Source: Gelidibacter pelagius (lineage in GTDB: Bacteria; Bacteroidota; Bacteroidia; Flavobacteriales; Flavobacteriaceae). From it: DNA of 64,000 nt. The stretch spans positions 310,001 through 374,000 of the forward strand of contig NZ_JAGEVG010000001.1 of assembly GCF_017581925.1 (NCBI RefSeq). The letters run 5' to 3'. The position numbers and the translations under genes are program-made. The notes under the pieces were generated by a model. The model had not been told where the DNA came from. It saw only the letters and a list, made by a program, of their open reading frames with translations, and made no database searches. This document shows, piece after piece, positions 1,916-36,525 of the stretch. How positions within the stretch are numbered: the first letter of the stretch is position 1; every line of letters starts with the position of its first letter.

Positions 1916-3031
1916 ATGAATCTCTCCTATTGGGAAATAAAAAGCTACCTCTCCAACATTGATTATACCATTGTCGGTAGCGGAATTGTTGGACTCAATT
2001 GCGCTTTACGGTTGAGGGAACGCTTCCCGAAAGCCACTATTGTTATTCTTGAACGAGGGTTTTTACCACAAGGAGCGAGCACTAAAAATGCTGGTTTTGC
2101 TTGTTTTGGTAGCCTCAGTGAGATTTTGGATGACCTCAATACACATTCTGAGGATGAAGTCATTCAATTGATAGAAAAACGGCGTAATGGATTGGCATTA
2201 TTACGTCAGACATTATCTGATGAAGCCATCGACTATCAACAGCATGGCGGCTATGAATTATTTGACCATAGTGACCATGAAGGCTATGACTATTGTATGT
2301 CGCAAATGGGCAAAGTGAATGCACTCCTAAAACCACAATTTAAGGCCGATGTCTTTCAAATTAAAGAGAACCTCTTCAATTTTCAAAATATTCAAAATGA
2401 ACTAAGTTTTACACCATTTGAAGGGCAAATTGACACCGGAAAAATGATGCGATCACTTACTGATTTGGTGTTGAACAAAGGCATTCTAATCCTAAATTCA
2501 GTTTCTGTAGAGCATTTCGAAGACCTTAGTGAAAACGTGTATATAAAAACTGATAAATTCGAATTTAAAACGAATCAATTGCTAATTTGCACCAATGGTT
2601 TCGCATCGAAACTCATAAACGCTGAAGTGAAACCAGCAAGAGCACAAGTTTTAATCACAAAACCTATTGAAAACTTAAAAATTAAAGGGACCTTTCATCT
2701 CGATAAAGGGTTCTATTATTTTCGTAATATTGACTCGCGAATTTTATTGGGTGGCGGACGTAATCTCGATTTCAAAACCGAAGAAACCACAGAAATGGCC
2801 CAAACCGCAATTATTCAAAACAAGTTGGAAGAATTTTTGAAAACAACAATTTTACCAAATATGCCTTTTGAAATCGAACACAGATGGAGTGGCATTATGG
2901 GCGTTGGTAGCACTAAAAAGCCGATTGTAAAGCGACTAAGCAATAAGGTGTTTTGCGGCGTTAGATTAGGAGGTATGGGTATTGCCATTGGCAGCCATGT
3001 GGGTAGAGAATTAGCTGATTTGGTGGATTAA
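1916..3031 (+). CDS. FAD-dependent oxidoreductase, DAO family
   Basis: This is a cytoplasmic flavoprotein of the D-amino-acid-oxidase/glycine-oxidase superfamily. The substrate cannot be read from sequence. The N-terminus carries the dinucleotide-binding motif VGSGIVGLNCALRLRE around residues 20-35, followed by an acidic strand end (ILERG) and the ASTKNAGFACFG segment typical of this flavobacterial group. A second FAD-contacting segment near the C-terminus reads GGMGIAIGSHVGRELA. The length of 371 residues is normal. The start is the first ATG after a stop and places the protein right behind a tandem repeat. It could form a unit with mtgA, 46 bases downstream, but no functional link is evident. 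Confidence 0.8.
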   Translation: MNLSYWEIKSYLSNIDYTIVGSGIVGLNCALRLRERFPKATIVILERGFLPQGASTKNAGFACFGSLSEILDDLNTHSEDEVIQLIEKRRNGLALLRQTLSDEAIDYQQHGGYELFDHSDHEGYDYCMSQMGKVNALLKPQFKADVFQIKENLFNFQNIQNELSFTPFEGQIDTGKMMRSLTDLVLNKGILILNSVSVEHFEDLSENVYIKTDKFEFKTNQLLICTNGFASKLINAEVKPARAQVLITKPIENLKIKGTFHLDKGFYYFRNIDSRILLGGGRNLDFKTEETTEMAQTAIIQNKLEEFLKTTILPNMPFEIEHRWSGIMGVGSTKKPIVKRLSNKVFCGVRLGGMGIAIGSHVGRELADLVD

Positions 3032-3077
3032 TAAGCTGCATCCACTAACCTGTTTGTAGGTTAAAATGTAAAAATTA

Positions 3078-4238: not shown

Positions 4239-4272
4239 AGACCTCACAGATTTTTCAAAATCTGTGAGGTCT
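4239..4272. terminator. Bidirectional terminator-like palindrome
   Basis: A perfect 16-bp inverted repeat (AGACCTCACAGATTTT and its complement, 2-base loop) lies between convergent genes. Its ACCT...AGGT ends resemble the other dispersed palindromes in the window. It lacks a long T run, so it may be a repeat element acting as a terminator. Confidence 0.7.
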
Positions 4273-11060: not shown

Positions 11061-11795
11061 ATGAAGAAGAAGTTGGAGTCTGAATTAATGAGTATTGCCC
11101 ATCGTATTCTGAAATTGAAGGGCAGAGAGAATGTGAAGGAAATGCACCGCGAAGTGGGCCTGCTATATGAGAAATTGAGTGTTTTGAAATTTGCCAATGA
11201 AAATTTAGAAAAACCTATGCCTACTATAGGGGTTGATTCTTCATTTTTTGAGATGTTGGATGTGGCATTCAACAATAAAATAAGCGACAATATTGAACGT
11301 GACGATAAAATTTATGTCAATCTTGATGAGGTAGAAGACGATGGTATTATGGAGCCGGTCATGGAAAAAATTAAGGATATGGTTGCTCAAATGCCCCATG
11401 AAACACATCAAATTGATGCCTTTTTTGAACAATCACTTCCTAAAGCAACCGAGGAGGACAAAGATGATTTTGAAGAATTGACCGCAGGTTTTAAGAACAT
11501 GCCGGTTTTTGATCCTGTTCCAAATTCCAAGGATCATTTGAAGAAATCGTTGAACGACAAACTTAAGAATGGACTTAATATTGGTCTGAATGATAAAATT
11601 GCATTTATCAAACATCTTTTTGATGGCCATCGCGAAGATTATGATCGCGTACTTTCTCAAATCAATACGTCAAGTTCTTTGGATGAAGCTAAAAATTTAA
11701 TCCAAAATATTGTCAAACCTGATTATAACAATTGGATAGGAAAAGAAGACGTCGAAGAGCGTTTTATGAATATTATAGAAGGTAAGTTCGACTAA
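11061..11795 (+). CDS. Conserved hypothetical protein
   Basis: A soluble, acidic, mostly helical protein of 244 residues with no signal peptide or membrane segment. I do not recognise a named domain. The N-terminal 60 residues are a charged helical segment (LMSIAHRILKLKGRENVKEMHREVGLLYEKL). The C-terminal part has KKSLNDKLKNGLNIGLNDKIAFIKHLFDG followed by a region (YDRVLSQINTSSSLDEAKNLIQ). The latter is reminiscent of flavobacterial proteins found beside tdk and rsmI. It ends 3 bases before rsmI, so it is likely part of the same operon. Function unknown. Confidence 0.75.
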   Translation: MKKKLESELMSIAHRILKLKGRENVKEMHREVGLLYEKLSVLKFANENLEKPMPTIGVDSSFFEMLDVAFNNKISDNIERDDKIYVNLDEVEDDGIMEPVMEKIKDMVAQMPHETHQIDAFFEQSLPKATEEDKDDFEELTAGFKNMPVFDPVPNSKDHLKKSLNDKLKNGLNIGLNDKIAFIKHLFDGHREDYDRVLSQINTSSSLDEAKNLIQNIVKPDYNNWIGKEDVEERFMNIIEGKFD

Positions 11796-24343: not shown

Positions 24344-24417
24344 GGGGATGTAGCTCAGTTGGCTAGAGCGCTTGGCTGGCAGTCAAGAGGTCGTCGGTTC
24401 GAACCCGTCCTTCTCCA
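24344..24417 (+). tRNA. tRNA-Ala (anticodon GGC)
   Basis: A 74-base cloverleaf without encoded CCA. The acceptor stem GGGGATG / CTTCTCC contains the G3:U70 pair that identifies alanine tRNAs. The D arm is GCTC...GAGC. The anticodon arm CTTGG-CTGGCAG-TCAAG gives anticodon GGC, and the T loop is TTCGAAC. Two U:U mismatches (acceptor position 6:67 and T-stem 50:64) weaken the fold slightly. A strong terminator follows four bases after the discriminator base. Confidence 0.93.
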
Positions 24418-33383: not shown

Positions 33384-33992
33384 ATGGCTTTCGAATTACC
33401 GAAATTAGAATATGCATATGATGCTTTAGAGCCTCATATCGATGCAAAAACAATGGAAATACATCATTCAAAACATCACCAGGGATATACCAATAACTTA
33501 AATGCTGCTATTGAAGGCACTGATTTGGCAGGAAAAACTATTGAAAATATCTTGATCAACTTAGATATGGACAAAAAAGCTGTTAGAAATAATGGTGGCG
33601 GTTTTTACAACCATTCCCTGTTTTGGGAAATAATGAACCCAGAAGGTAAAGGTCGTTTGTCTGGAGAACTAAAAGATGCTATTGAAGCAGCCTATGATTC
33701 AGTTGATGCTTTTAAAGATGAGTTCAGTAAAGCTGCCGCAACTCAGTTTGGCTCTGGATGGGCTTGGTTATGTGTGCACAAAGGCGGTAAAGTAGAAGTT
33801 TGCTCAACACCAAACCAAGATAATCCATTGATGCCAGGAGTTGGTTGCGGTGGAACACCAATTTTAGGATTGGATGTTTGGGAGCATGCATACTATTTGA
33901 AATATCAAAATAGAAGACCTGATTATATCAACGCATTTTTTAATGTGATCAATTGGAATGAGGTTGAAAGACGTTACGCAGAAGCGAAATAA
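33384..33992 (+). CDS. sodA: Superoxide dismutase (Fe/Mn)
   Basis: It dismutates superoxide to hydrogen peroxide and oxygen. It is a 202-residue cytoplasmic enzyme of the Fe/Mn family. Metal ligands are visible: His in [17 protein letters not shown], His in [13 protein letters not shown], and Asp and His in [20 protein letters not shown]. The segment [13 protein letters not shown] is conserved. The usual residues that separate Fe from Mn preference are ambiguous, so the metal is not assigned. Two hairpin terminators follow the stop. Confidence 0.94.
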
Positions 33993-34076: not shown

Positions 34077-34105
34077 AAGCGAATCTGAAAAGGTTCGCTT
34101 TTTTT
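34077..34105 (+). terminator. sodA terminator 2
   Basis: A 7-bp stem AAGCGAA / TTCGCTT, 10-base loop, followed by seven T. Confidence 0.75.
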
Positions 34106-34182
34106 ATGTGGAATTGTAGATTTTTGAAAAAGACCATGCTGGGATTTGAATTTTGAGATACCCGTATTCGCGGGTATTCATG

Positions 34183-34253
34183 AAAAAAGGTGGACGAGTG
34201 TCCACCTTTTTTGCCCCAAATCTACCATAAACTTAACCTACTTATGTTATGGT
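34183..34253 (-). ncRNA. Putative small RNA, copy 1
   Basis: Read on the minus strand, the element begins about 5 bases after a TATATTTG promoter box and runs for about 70 bases. It has an ACCATAA/TTATGGT hairpin with a 16-base loop (core AAGTAGGTTAAG), a conserved single-stranded linker AGATTTGGGGCA, and a perfect terminator stem GGTGGAC / GTCCACC flanked by A6 and T6. A second copy lies 259 bases away with 47 of 48 identical core bases but a different, still perfectly paired terminator stem. No reading frame is conserved. I cannot name it; an unlabelled member of a known Bacteroidetes RNA family such as Flavo-1 is possible. Confidence 0.6.
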
Positions 34254-34257
34254 GGAA

Positions 34258-34290
34258 CAAATATAAGAGGACTAAAATGTAATAGTTCAA
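34258..34290 (-). promoter_or_regulatory. Promoter for small RNA copy 1
   Basis: On the minus strand TTG (34288-34290) is followed, 22 bases later, by TATATTTG (34258-34265), a full Bacteroidetes-type promoter. The predicted start falls at about 34251-34253, the first base of the conserved hairpin. Confidence 0.6.
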
Positions 34291-34439
34291 TTTATTAGAT
34301 AAACTACGAATAAATTAGGCTGAATGATAGGTTTCGACAAAAAAAGCCTAAATGAGCGTGTAACAATTAAAGTGATTGTTGGATTGAGCGTTACTATAAA
34401 GTTAACAATCAACTTTATATCCTACAAAAAAAGGGGCAT

Positions 34440-34513
34440 AAAAAAAGGTAAACAGAAGTTTACCTTTTTTTGCCCCAAATCTACCATGAACTTAACCTAC
34501 TTATGTTATGGTG
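34440..34513 (-). ncRNA. Putative small RNA, copy 2
   Basis: Same architecture as copy 1: the conserved hairpin (one A-to-G change opposite U keeps pairing), the linker AGATTTGGGGCA, and a terminator stem GGTAAAC / GTTTACC that differs from copy 1 by two compensated base pairs. The terminator stem here extends further through A/T runs to GGGGC / GCCCC at 34433-34437 and 34472-34476. At the same distance as in copy 1, upstream on the minus strand, lies TACTTTAG (34517-34524), one base off the -7 consensus. A clear -33 box is missing. As it is the first hairpin behind purF it may also terminate purF. Confidence 0.55.
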
Positions 34514-34626
34514 ATACTAAAGTATATTGAATTTCAACAACTTGATATAAAATTTAGATGAATTACCAAATTATCCGATTAACAGGCATTTTGTTAGGCA
34601 AAGTGGGTAAATGTCATCTTTTAAAT

Positions 34627-36525
34627 TTAATAAGCGCGCTTGTTATTTCCTTCATAAAAATTAATAAAGGCTCTATTGACAACACGATTTCCTCCAGCTG
34701 TAGGGTAGTTTCCCGTAAAATACCAATCTCCCAGATTTTTAGGACACGCTATATGTAGGTTTTCAATGGTTTGAAAGATTGCTTTTACTTCTGTTTTGAC
34801 GCTATCATCACAAATAAGCTCTCCAATCTTATCTGAAATTTGCTCTGCGCTAAATTGGTTGTAGAGTTCTTTTACAAAATTTCTAACCTCTTTGTCCTCC
34901 AAATGTACTTGTTCTATACACTTTTTATAGACTTCTTCTATAAGATGGTATTTGTCATTTTCTTTCAGCAGCTCAAGCATGGCTCTAAAAGCAATTAAGT
35001 CTTCCAATTTTGCCATGTCAATGCCATAACAATCAGGATAACGAATTTGAGGAGCGGAGGATACCACTACTATCTTCTTTGGATGGAGTCTATCCATCAT
35101 TTTAATAATACTCTTCTTTAAAGTAGTACCACGCACAATACTATCATCAATGATAACCAGATTGTCCGTAGGTTTTATGACACCATAGGTGACATCATAA
35201 ACGTGGGCCACTAAATCATCTCTACTGCTATCCTCAGTGATAAACGTCCTGAGTTTGACGTCTTTAATAGCAATCTTCTCTATTCGAGGGCGTTCTGATA
35301 ATATTTGGGTAACCTTTTCTGCAGAAAGCTCACCGTTACCATTAAGAATGGCTTCAGTCTTCTTTTTGTTGAGATGGTCTTCTACGGTTTCAATCATACC
35401 AAAAAAGGAGGTTTCAGCCGTATTTGGAATATATGAAAACACCGTGTTTTTTGTGTCGAAATCAATAGCTTCCAAAACCTTTGGCATGAGCAGTTTGCCT
35501 AGTTTTTTTCGTTCTTGATAAATTTCGGCATCACTACCTCGTGAAAAATAAATACGTTCAAAGGAGCAAGCCTTGCGCTCAGTTGGCTCAAGAATTTTCT
35601 TAATTGCCGTTTCTCCTGATTTTTTTGTGATAATTGCATGGCCAGGCGTTAATTCTTTGACATCCTCAAAATTGACGTCGAATACGGTTTGTATGACCGG
35701 ACGTTCAGAAGCGACCACCACAATTTCATCATCCTGATAATAGTATGCCGGTCTGATTCCAGCAGGATCACGAAGTACAAAAGAGTCTCCATGTCCTAAA
35801 AGTCCTGCTATTGCATACCCCCCATCCCAGTCCTTGGCAGAACGTTTCAGGATTTTACCGACGTTGAGTCGATCAGCAATCAATGGTGAACATTCGTTTT
35901 TATTATAACCCTCACGTTTCAATTGCTTGTATTTTTTGGCAACCGCATCATCCAAGAAATGACCAATTTTCTCCATTATAGTAACAGTGTCCGCCTTTTC
36001 TTTTGGATGTTGCCCTATTTTAACCAAGCCTTCAAATAGTTCATTAACATTGGTCATGTTGAAATTCCCTGCTACAATCAGGTTTCTGTGCATCCAATTA
36101 TTTTGTCTTAGGAAAGGATGGACATTCTCTACACTGTTTTTTCCAAAAGTTCCATATCGTACGTGTCCCAAGAGTACTTCCCCTATATAAGGAATGTTCT
36201 TTTTTTGTAAGGCCACATCGTCTGCATATTCTGGATGCTCAGTAAGTTCTTTATTGATGCGCTCGTTGATTTGGGCAAAAATATCCTGAATTGGTTGTTG
36301 GGCGATCGAGCGTACTCGACTGATATAGCGTTCCCCTGGTGCGGTATCGAGTTTAATGCTTGCAAAGCCAGCCCCATCTTGTCCCCGATTGTGCTGTTTT
36401 TCCATCATCAAATACATTTTATTGACACCATAAAATGCACTGCCGTATTTTTCTTTATAAAATTCTAAAGGTTTTAAAAGTCTGATGAGTGCAATTCCGC
36501 ACTCATGTTTTATCGCATCACTCAT
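34627..36525 (-). CDS. purF: Amidophosphoribosyltransferase
   Basis: It transfers the glutamine amide nitrogen to PRPP, the first committed step of purine synthesis. The N-terminal Ntn-type glutaminase starts MSDAIKHECGIALIRL, so the nucleophilic cysteine at position 9 implies removal of an eight-residue leader. The segment HNRGQDGAGFAS and GHVRYGTFG follow. The PRPP-binding motif is LVIIDDSIVRGTTLKKSII near residue 463. At 632 residues it belongs to the long Bacteroidetes form; E. coli PurF has 505. The extra length lies partly in the C-terminal 120 residues. It is not close to other pur genes except purN, 4 kb away. Confidence 0.92.
   Translation of the reverse strand: MSDAIKHECGIALIRLLKPLEFYKEKYGSAFYGVNKMYLMMEKQHNRGQDGAGFASIKLDTAPGERYISRVRSIAQQPIQDIFAQINERINKELTEHPEYADDVALQKKNIPYIGEVLLGHVRYGTFGKNSVENVHPFLRQNNWMHRNLIVAGNFNMTNVNELFEGLVKIGQHPKEKADTVTIMEKIGHFLDDAVAKKYKQLKREGYNKNECSPLIADRLNVGKILKRSAKDWDGGYAIAGLLGHGDSFVLRDPAGIRPAYYYQDDEIVVVASERPVIQTVFDVNFEDVKELTPGHAIITKKSGETAIKKILEPTERKACSFERIYFSRGSDAEIYQERKKLGKLLMPKVLEAIDFDTKNTVFSYIPNTAETSFFGMIETVEDHLNKKKTEAILNGNGELSAEKVTQILSERPRIEKIAIKDVKLRTFITEDSSRDDLVAHVYDVTYGVIKPTDNLVIIDDSIVRGTTLKKSIIKMMDRLHPKKIVVVSSAPQIRYPDCYGIDMAKLEDLIAFRAMLELLKENDKYHLIEEVYKKCIEQVHLEDKEVRNFVKELYNQFSAEQISDKIGELICDDSVKTEVKAIFQTIENLHIACPKNLGDWYFTGNYPTAGGNRVVNRAFINFYEGNNKRAY

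Follow-up and report, generated by a model that had tools for sequence, protein, structure and literature searches.

What are the two almost identical elements that lie between sodA and purF in Gelidibacter pelagius, and what might they do? In the window, by which we mean the whole 64,000-nucleotide stretch of DNA analysed here, the segments at 34207-34254 and 34466-34513 share 47 of 48 bases at an offset of 259, as a direct count confirms for the first-pass annotation that had pointed them out. Its further remark that they are not embedded in a longer duplication also holds, as the flanks of the two copies are dissimilar (29/60 bases identical upstream and 16/60 downstream). The elements are bounded by conserved neighbours, namely sodA at 33384-33992 on the plus strand, a name taken from that annotation and consistent with a tblastn search of its protein, and purF at 34627-36525 on the minus strand, which is also the strand of the copies. 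Read on that strand, each copy presents a hairpin, a linker and a terminator in this order, and none of 200 dinucleotide shuffles folds as well as either of them (z -4.5 and -6.1). The genome itself holds just these two full-length matches. We conclude that the twin elements very probably encode a short regulatory RNA, here termed sRNA1, and, more specifically, we consider it likely that they are paralogous genes of one trans-acting antisense RNA of ~71 nt that blocks start codons.

The copy proximal to sodA (34183-34253, minus strand; 95.9 bits with the covariance model R1 introduced below) consists of the 5' hairpin, the linker AGAUUUGGGGC and a terminator hairpin with its U-run at 34183-34212, whereas the purF-proximal copy (34441-34512, minus strand; 97.8 bits) has its first terminator hairpin at 34440-34471. 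In the predicted fold of the RNA, a 5' hairpin displays the loop region AUAAGUAGGUUAAG and is joined to an intrinsic terminator by the single-stranded linker AGAUUUGGGGCA. The two terminator stems, GGTGGAC/GTCCACC in copy 1 and GGTAAAC/GTTTACC in copy 2, differ by two compensated pair changes, just as had been described; both stems are indeed there, but their supposed equal length does not extend to the whole terminator, which is longer in copy 2 because GGGGCA can pair with UGCCCC past the first U-run, to about 34433. The single difference within the core is U25 in copy 1 against C25 in copy 2 of the minus-strand RNA. This base is unpaired in the consensus fold, and pairs in a shifted register in the minimum-energy fold of copy 1; hence, it is not the change from an A-U to a G-U pair in a second stem for which it had been taken.

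The first question for such a pair is whether it is a local accident. We built a covariance model (R1) on the first 50 loci, which supplied 59 distinct copies. It matches 317 of 397 Flavobacteriaceae genomes, representing 198 of 237 genera, with five of the 317 matches weaker than 1e-5. In a sample of the phylum it matches 38 of 395 genomes, 34 of which lie within the family, one of them at 8.6e-4; the only four outside it (E 2.7e-4 to 9.2e-4) are taken as chance. A sequence search of 98 relatives likewise returned strong, mostly tandem matches in many Flavobacteriaceae genomes, and beyond the family its best match spans 25 bases (9.7e-5). Scanning named genomes by pattern recovered at least 118 stretches, and the names listed for 80 of these, with Zobellia, Maribacter and Winogradskyella among them, are those of Flavobacteriaceae or else of unclassified Bacteroidota or Flavobacteriia. 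Among the 118 stretches listed, many of which end short on one side and so limit these counts, the copies are accompanied by both sodA and purF in 82, by purF alone in 21, by sodA alone in 11 and by neither in 4; wherever purF is present they lie on its strand (103/103).

The fetched stretches hold one to six exact-pattern copies each, and neighbouring copies are spaced 146-709 nt apart (median 215 over 210 gaps, those of 1200 nt or more being excluded). Where an array has at least two copies, the one that comes last in the direction of transcription is of the U25 type and the others of the C25 type in 100 of 119 cases; both the gap and the array counts include loci that were fetched more than once. 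From this spacing and order the copies look like old paralogues, the core of which seems to be held by selection. Two departures from the usual layout were encountered: one relative (L050, G013:C13) has two extra, dispersed copies at 2967-3037 and 11591-11661, 8.6 kb apart, which have a different terminator, of the GAGAGAATT type, and lie in a 15-kb stretch with neither sodA nor purF, and another has its two copies at the ends of two contigs (L047 = G002:C20 and L015 = G002:C5), as if the assembly had broken between them. A DNA repeat or the remnant of a mobile element, to which the near-identical tandem copies and the dispersed extras of that one relative might be attributed, is scarcely credible given two copies only in the G. 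pelagius genome, unrelated flanks, and sodA or purF in 114 of the 118 loci listed.

The pattern of conservation speaks to the nature of the gene. We picked 303 distinct copies by ATAAGTAGGTTAAGTTYATGGT, which by itself fixes positions 9-30; yet positions 2, 8, 31 and 35, outside this pattern, are also identical in 302-303 of the 303. Upstream, the motif TAnnTTNG occupies -12 to -5, its fixed bases being conserved in 87, 91, 99, 93 and 76% of the 303 copies. In the window it corresponds to the -7 boxes TATATTTG (34258-34265) and TACTTTAG (34517-34524), both on the minus strand and, in line with the original observation, equally distant from their copies. The TTG noted 22 bases before the first of these boxes is present, but it is not conserved, and no conserved TTG at -33 was found over the 303 copies; a -33 box is therefore not supported. 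Farther upstream, TT pairs at -70/-69 (73 and 81%) and -49/-48 (85 and 74%), each with C- and A-rich positions after it, together form a direct repeat with a period of 20-21 bp, in which some copies read TTTCATCGAT. This region, at about -38 to -70 (34291-34323 for copy 1 and 34550-34582 for copy 2, minus strand), is conserved by position over the same copies and is a possible activator site.

In the alignment of relatives (A1), the terminator helix changes on both sides in seven of 11 pairs (44 cells, reached in 0/500 shuffles), so that the compensation seen between the twins recurs in relatives. The 5' stem has no such covariation support, because nine of its 11 pairs are invariant and the remaining two have G-U alternatives only. 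It is the core rather than the terminator that is the conserved part. These features bear on the possibility that the copies are a structured 3' UTR or tandem terminators of purF, the short RNA being processed from purF mRNA. Such an origin would suit the constant strand relative to purF in the 103 listed loci and the terminator that ends each copy; it would account poorly for the -7 box and, less strictly, the upstream repeat at a fixed, conserved distance, as well as for conservation in the core instead of the terminator, and we regard it as very improbable. Judged from these sequences, sRNA1 looks like an independent gene with a conserved -7 box, as part of a predicted promoter, and a compensated intrinsic terminator. 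Each copy would be transcribed from its own promoter of the Bacteroidota type, with a -7 box and without a conserved -33 box. We infer the RNA itself, a minus-strand transcript of about 70 nt running from the first hairpin to the U-run as the first-pass annotation had proposed, from the promoter box, core and compensated terminator together with their spread in the family.

Does this RNA belong to a known family? Across the whole window, Rfam 15 at gathering scores reports only the tRNA-Ala at 24344. A more permissive search of 34100-34600 (E up to 10) yields 21 matches, none of which reaches its gathering score; STnc350, on the plus strand, scores highest (32.2 of 60 bits), and the only Bacteroidota sRNA among them is FopS (RF04319), at 21.7 bits against a gathering score of 56 (E 0.56). 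Flavo-1, which had been named in advance as a family for comparison, is not among the 21. The elements have turned out to be neither part of a longer repeat or mobile element nor a strong match to an Rfam family, and their terminator covaries.

If sRNA1 acts in trans, its unpaired parts should find partners, as the first-pass annotation had supposed in assigning the functional role to the loop and linker. A scan of the genome with the seed CTTAACCTACTTATG, allowing up to two mismatches, gives seven matches, namely sRNA1 twice and five others. This is not an overall enrichment, as the reversed control pattern gives 12+20, and we discarded the whole-genome scan as evidence by count alone. In one of the five others (ATTAACCTACTTATG), the AUG coincides with a start codon. 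The gene encodes a protein of 164 residues with a CAP domain (PF00188; 36.3 bits vs 21.1) and, by eye, a lipoprotein signal. Its leader of about 25 nt, between a -7-like box, TAATTTAGC, and the AUG, is largely complementary to the linker and loop of sRNA1, and the predicted duplex energy is reached by 4/1077 control starts in a wider window. The protein is encoded in 45 of 98 relatives (E 1e-6 or better). Thirty homologues were fetched, all but one of which (L288) yielded a usable start; for these 29, the duplex between leader and sRNA1 has a median energy of -26.1 kcal/mol, against a control mean of -12.7 (sd 3.7; 1095 starts); 18 of the 29 leaders fall in the best 1% of control starts and all 29 in the best 5%, and none of 300 shuffled sRNAs reaches the median. 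The p-values of this near set are inflated by kinship, because nine of its genomes belong to a single genus and one match was the point of entry to the whole set.

We compare these with 34 more CAP regions, from divergent homologues and from two genomes without an R1 match (G011, 80% complete, and G054); five of these regions lacked a start and one was a duplicate. A perfect complement of at least 8 nt to the loop and linker occurs in 25/29 near and 12/22 divergent leaders, against 0/6 leaders of the two sRNA1-negative genomes and 49/1131 control starts. The other ten of the 22 divergent leaders lack such a match, and some of them belong to paralogues. By duplex energy alone, the divergent leaders are not significantly different from the six sRNA1-negative ones (medians -20.8 and -17.1, p 0.19). 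The pairing site also shifts among homologues: CTTAACCTATG or AACCTACTTATG lies at the start, some divergent members have the loop-only ACCTACTTA further upstream of the AUG, and others the linker-only GCCCCAAAU. Thus, there is conserved complementarity to mRNA start regions away from the sRNA1 locus, which favours the loop and linker as the prospective pairing parts.

The same data weigh on a different reading, in which sRNA1 sequesters a protein in the manner of CsrB or 6S RNA, the invariant hairpin and linker binding the protein, the copies adding dosage and the mRNA complementarity being coincidental or indirect. Invariance of the stem as well as the loop could indeed mean protein binding, and one to six copies per fetched stretch would serve dosage. 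A decoy RNA, however, needs no complement at start codons, let alone one that changes register between homologues and is absent in the two sRNA1-negative genomes. We consider sequestration improbable and prefer the antisense reading, in which the loop and linker would pair with target mRNAs over the start codon and the short 5' leader, the CAP-domain lipoprotein message (ACCAAAUCGAAUUAACCUACUUAUG in G. pelagius) being the first. As flavobacteria do not lean on Shine-Dalgarno pairing, according to PMC9723704, cover of a leader of ~25 nt and its AUG should block translation initiation.

The second candidate target lies beside scoB, where the linker part of sRNA1 recurs in tandem. Read in the sense direction, this locus might have been a third array of sRNA genes or a set of motif repeats like those of CsrB; we rejected both, since it is the opposite strand that carries a -7-like box, the upstream repeat and a conserved ORF, which is about 40-42 codons long. 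On the ORF strand, each locus has one to five sites complementary to sRNA1. The ORF in G. pelagius reads MNTAPNLPKPTLSESKLFETFQKTLKLLKGILMLTKKIFML (minus strand of L039, on which it starts near 4254; about 59.7 kb on G000:C15), and in most copies read the AUG lies inside a site. The encoded protein of ~41 residues is unannotated, ends in LTKKxFML in most copies, with a conserved C-terminus, and finds no match among Pfam and NCBIfam families; its gene has scoB on one side and an exonuclease or ABC-transporter gene on the other, and in one relative (L169) it reads out of frame. In 25 sequences compared over their last 24 codons, substitutions number 3825 at codon position 3, 2936 at position 1 and 1531 at position 2, as expected for coding sequence. 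A search with 205 bases of the locus matched 106 of 199 family genomes, many of them through the repeat element alone. The duplex predicted for the start region in G. pelagius (-39.0 kcal/mol) is reached by 0/1077 control starts. In a test of wobble direction over 69 sites (62 on the ORF strand and seven on the other), C-to-T changes numbered 79/483, A-to-G 41/690 and T-to-C 10/345, counts that point to pairing, with AT bias and the U25/C25 variant as confounders.

Several complementary sites per locus, one of them inside the coding region, and an upstream repeat similar to that of sRNA1 would also be found in a sponge, that is, a multi-site RNA titrating sRNA1 with an incidental ORF. Set against this are the coding constraint on that ORF, its conserved C-terminus and a start codon that lies within a site. 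A sponge that is not a target is an unlikely alternative, if the most probable of those weighed here, and the target and sponge roles are compatible with each other. We favour the small-protein mRNA, with one to five sites in its start region, as a putative second target. Taken together, the complementarity to the starts of the lipoprotein and tiny-protein messages suggests that sRNA1 would switch these messages off.

A bipartite pattern has six matches in the genome: two are sRNA1 itself, one is the CAP leader, one falls at the beginning of the small ORF, in its first codons, and the remaining two lie in other coding sequence. A uvrB-like match (G000:C37:129529 and similar) occurs in six of nine genomes of the genus; the two of these read (L353 and L360) are uvrB codons near the start, and we rejected it as a target, the match being probably incidental to coding constraint. 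Another of the five seed matches outside sRNA1, at G000:C36:6719 (L245), falls on the first codons of a gene whose product of 253 residues looks secreted and scores 14.6 of 23 bits with a T9SS tail model, below the cut-off. Its start is flanked by CCCCAAATC in the leader and TTTAACCTACGTATG in the first codons, complements of the sRNA1 linker and loop; the predicted duplex (-39.7 kcal/mol) is reached by 0/1077 control starts, and we propose this gene as a third candidate target. A further candidate is a membrane-protein gene at L200:1551-1580 (G000:C5), whose leader of ~28 nt, CCCACCTACTTATACTAATCTATCATGG, has a 10-nt complement of the sRNA1 loop and a predicted duplex of -27.9, which is reached by 9/1077 controls.

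The upstream repeat element also led us to a second conserved intergenic RNA, sRNA2, of ~147 nt (G000:C9:471-616 in G. pelagius; L229-L236 and L317-L346). It occurs in 122 of 397 family genomes, all of them among the 317 with sRNA1, a nesting uncontrolled for kinship; in one of the 122 (G022) the sRNA1 match is weak. Among 29 distinct copies, the stem AUUUGC/GCAAAU is invariant; in 25 of them the hairpin loop that it closes contains CCCUAAAUCUA, which is complementary to the sRNA1 linker with a single G-U pair. A long stretch, TTTAGTTCAATGGATTAATTAATTAATATTTGCAT, is exact in 22 of the 29, and the terminator has seven pairs changed on both sides. Rfam, with E up to 0.1, gave no match at the five sRNA2 and scoB-side loci and one sub-threshold match elsewhere on L174. 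The hairpin loop of sRNA2 may compete for the linker, and could thus titrate or modulate sRNA1.

The targets, sRNA1 and sRNA2 share similar upstream repeats, which makes their co-regulation likely. A regulator would probably activate the sRNA1 copies by binding the 20-21-bp direct repeat at about -70 and -49. The arrangement resembles the sites of LytTR response regulators, two 9-bp direct repeats about 21 bp apart. The genome encodes 13 LytTR proteins; the strict form of the repeat is found at none of their 13 loci, so that linkage does not single out a regulator, and the loose form, which is commonplace, at six. The loose pattern likewise failed to define a regulon, with 60 matches against 30 for the control, which is too many. 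With these elements we tentatively sketch a possible family-wide circuit: one regulator on the repeat would drive sRNA1, the sRNA2 sponge, the ~41-residue protein, the CAP lipoprotein and perhaps the further secreted protein, with sRNA1 repressing the mRNAs. We infer transcription, pairing in cells, repression, the identity of the regulator and the role of sRNA2 from comparative genomics. Such a circuit, if true, would constitute an incoherent feed-forward loop that includes its own RNA antagonist, and it would have been preserved across some two hundred genera with the 40-nt core almost unaltered.

Among known systems, LhrC of Listeria and Qrr of Vibrio come in several near-identical copies, some in tandem, have their own regulated promoters and repress several mRNAs. 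The near-identical tandem copies of sRNA1 recall these RNAs, which belong to other phyla and an Hfq context. Closer in taxonomy is FopS/GibS of Bacteroides, described in PMC11697453 as a multicopy family repressing SusC-type mRNAs. The likeness lies in multicopy, paralogous Bacteroidota sRNAs with a Rho-independent terminator that pair near the start codons of surface-protein mRNAs (PMC11697453). FopS has a single-stranded 5' stretch where sRNA1 has a 5' hairpin in both fold and consensus, and it counts 14 members in B. thetaiotaomicron, with SusC targets (PMC11697453); binding of an RbpB-type RRM protein is a further feature of that family. sRNA1 would, by analogy, work similarly to FopS, but it fails the FopS model and architecture. 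In Flavobacteriaceae, Guerin et al. (PMC9723704) reported 85 new RNAs of F. psychrophilum. These Rfp RNAs are likewise conserved flavobacterial sRNAs, found by RNA-seq, and deleting one changed mRNA levels (PMC9723704). Rfp18 is predicted to pair through a third stem-loop and acts on metalloprotease mRNAs (PMC9723704), whereas sRNA1 has two hairpins. Candidate sRNAs have also been reported for F. columnare (PMC5395568), and single sRNA1 members may already be recorded, unnamed, in these published F. psychrophilum and F. columnare transcript lists. Flavo-1 (Rfam; Weinberg 2010), a motif also named in PMC9723704, is similarly a structured RNA of Flavobacteriaceae. Among the open-licence papers that our searches listed, none describes sRNA1, its targets or its sequence, and those in which motif letters turned up are unrelated, judging by their titles; what is new, as judged by comparing genomes, is the complementarity of the loop and linker to the mRNA starts of the CAP lipoprotein and of an unannotated protein of ~41 residues.

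To our knowledge, few sRNAs of Flavobacteriaceae have a known target. The family is a major component of communities in soil, marine and freshwater habitats (PMC9723704). sRNA1 is found in most of its sampled genera in a nearly fixed place, and has comparatively supported candidate targets and a candidate RNA antagonist, all of which makes it directly testable in a laboratory flavobacterium. Beyond the RNA itself, it points to a conserved but unannotated protein of ~41 residues and to what may be a shared regulator.
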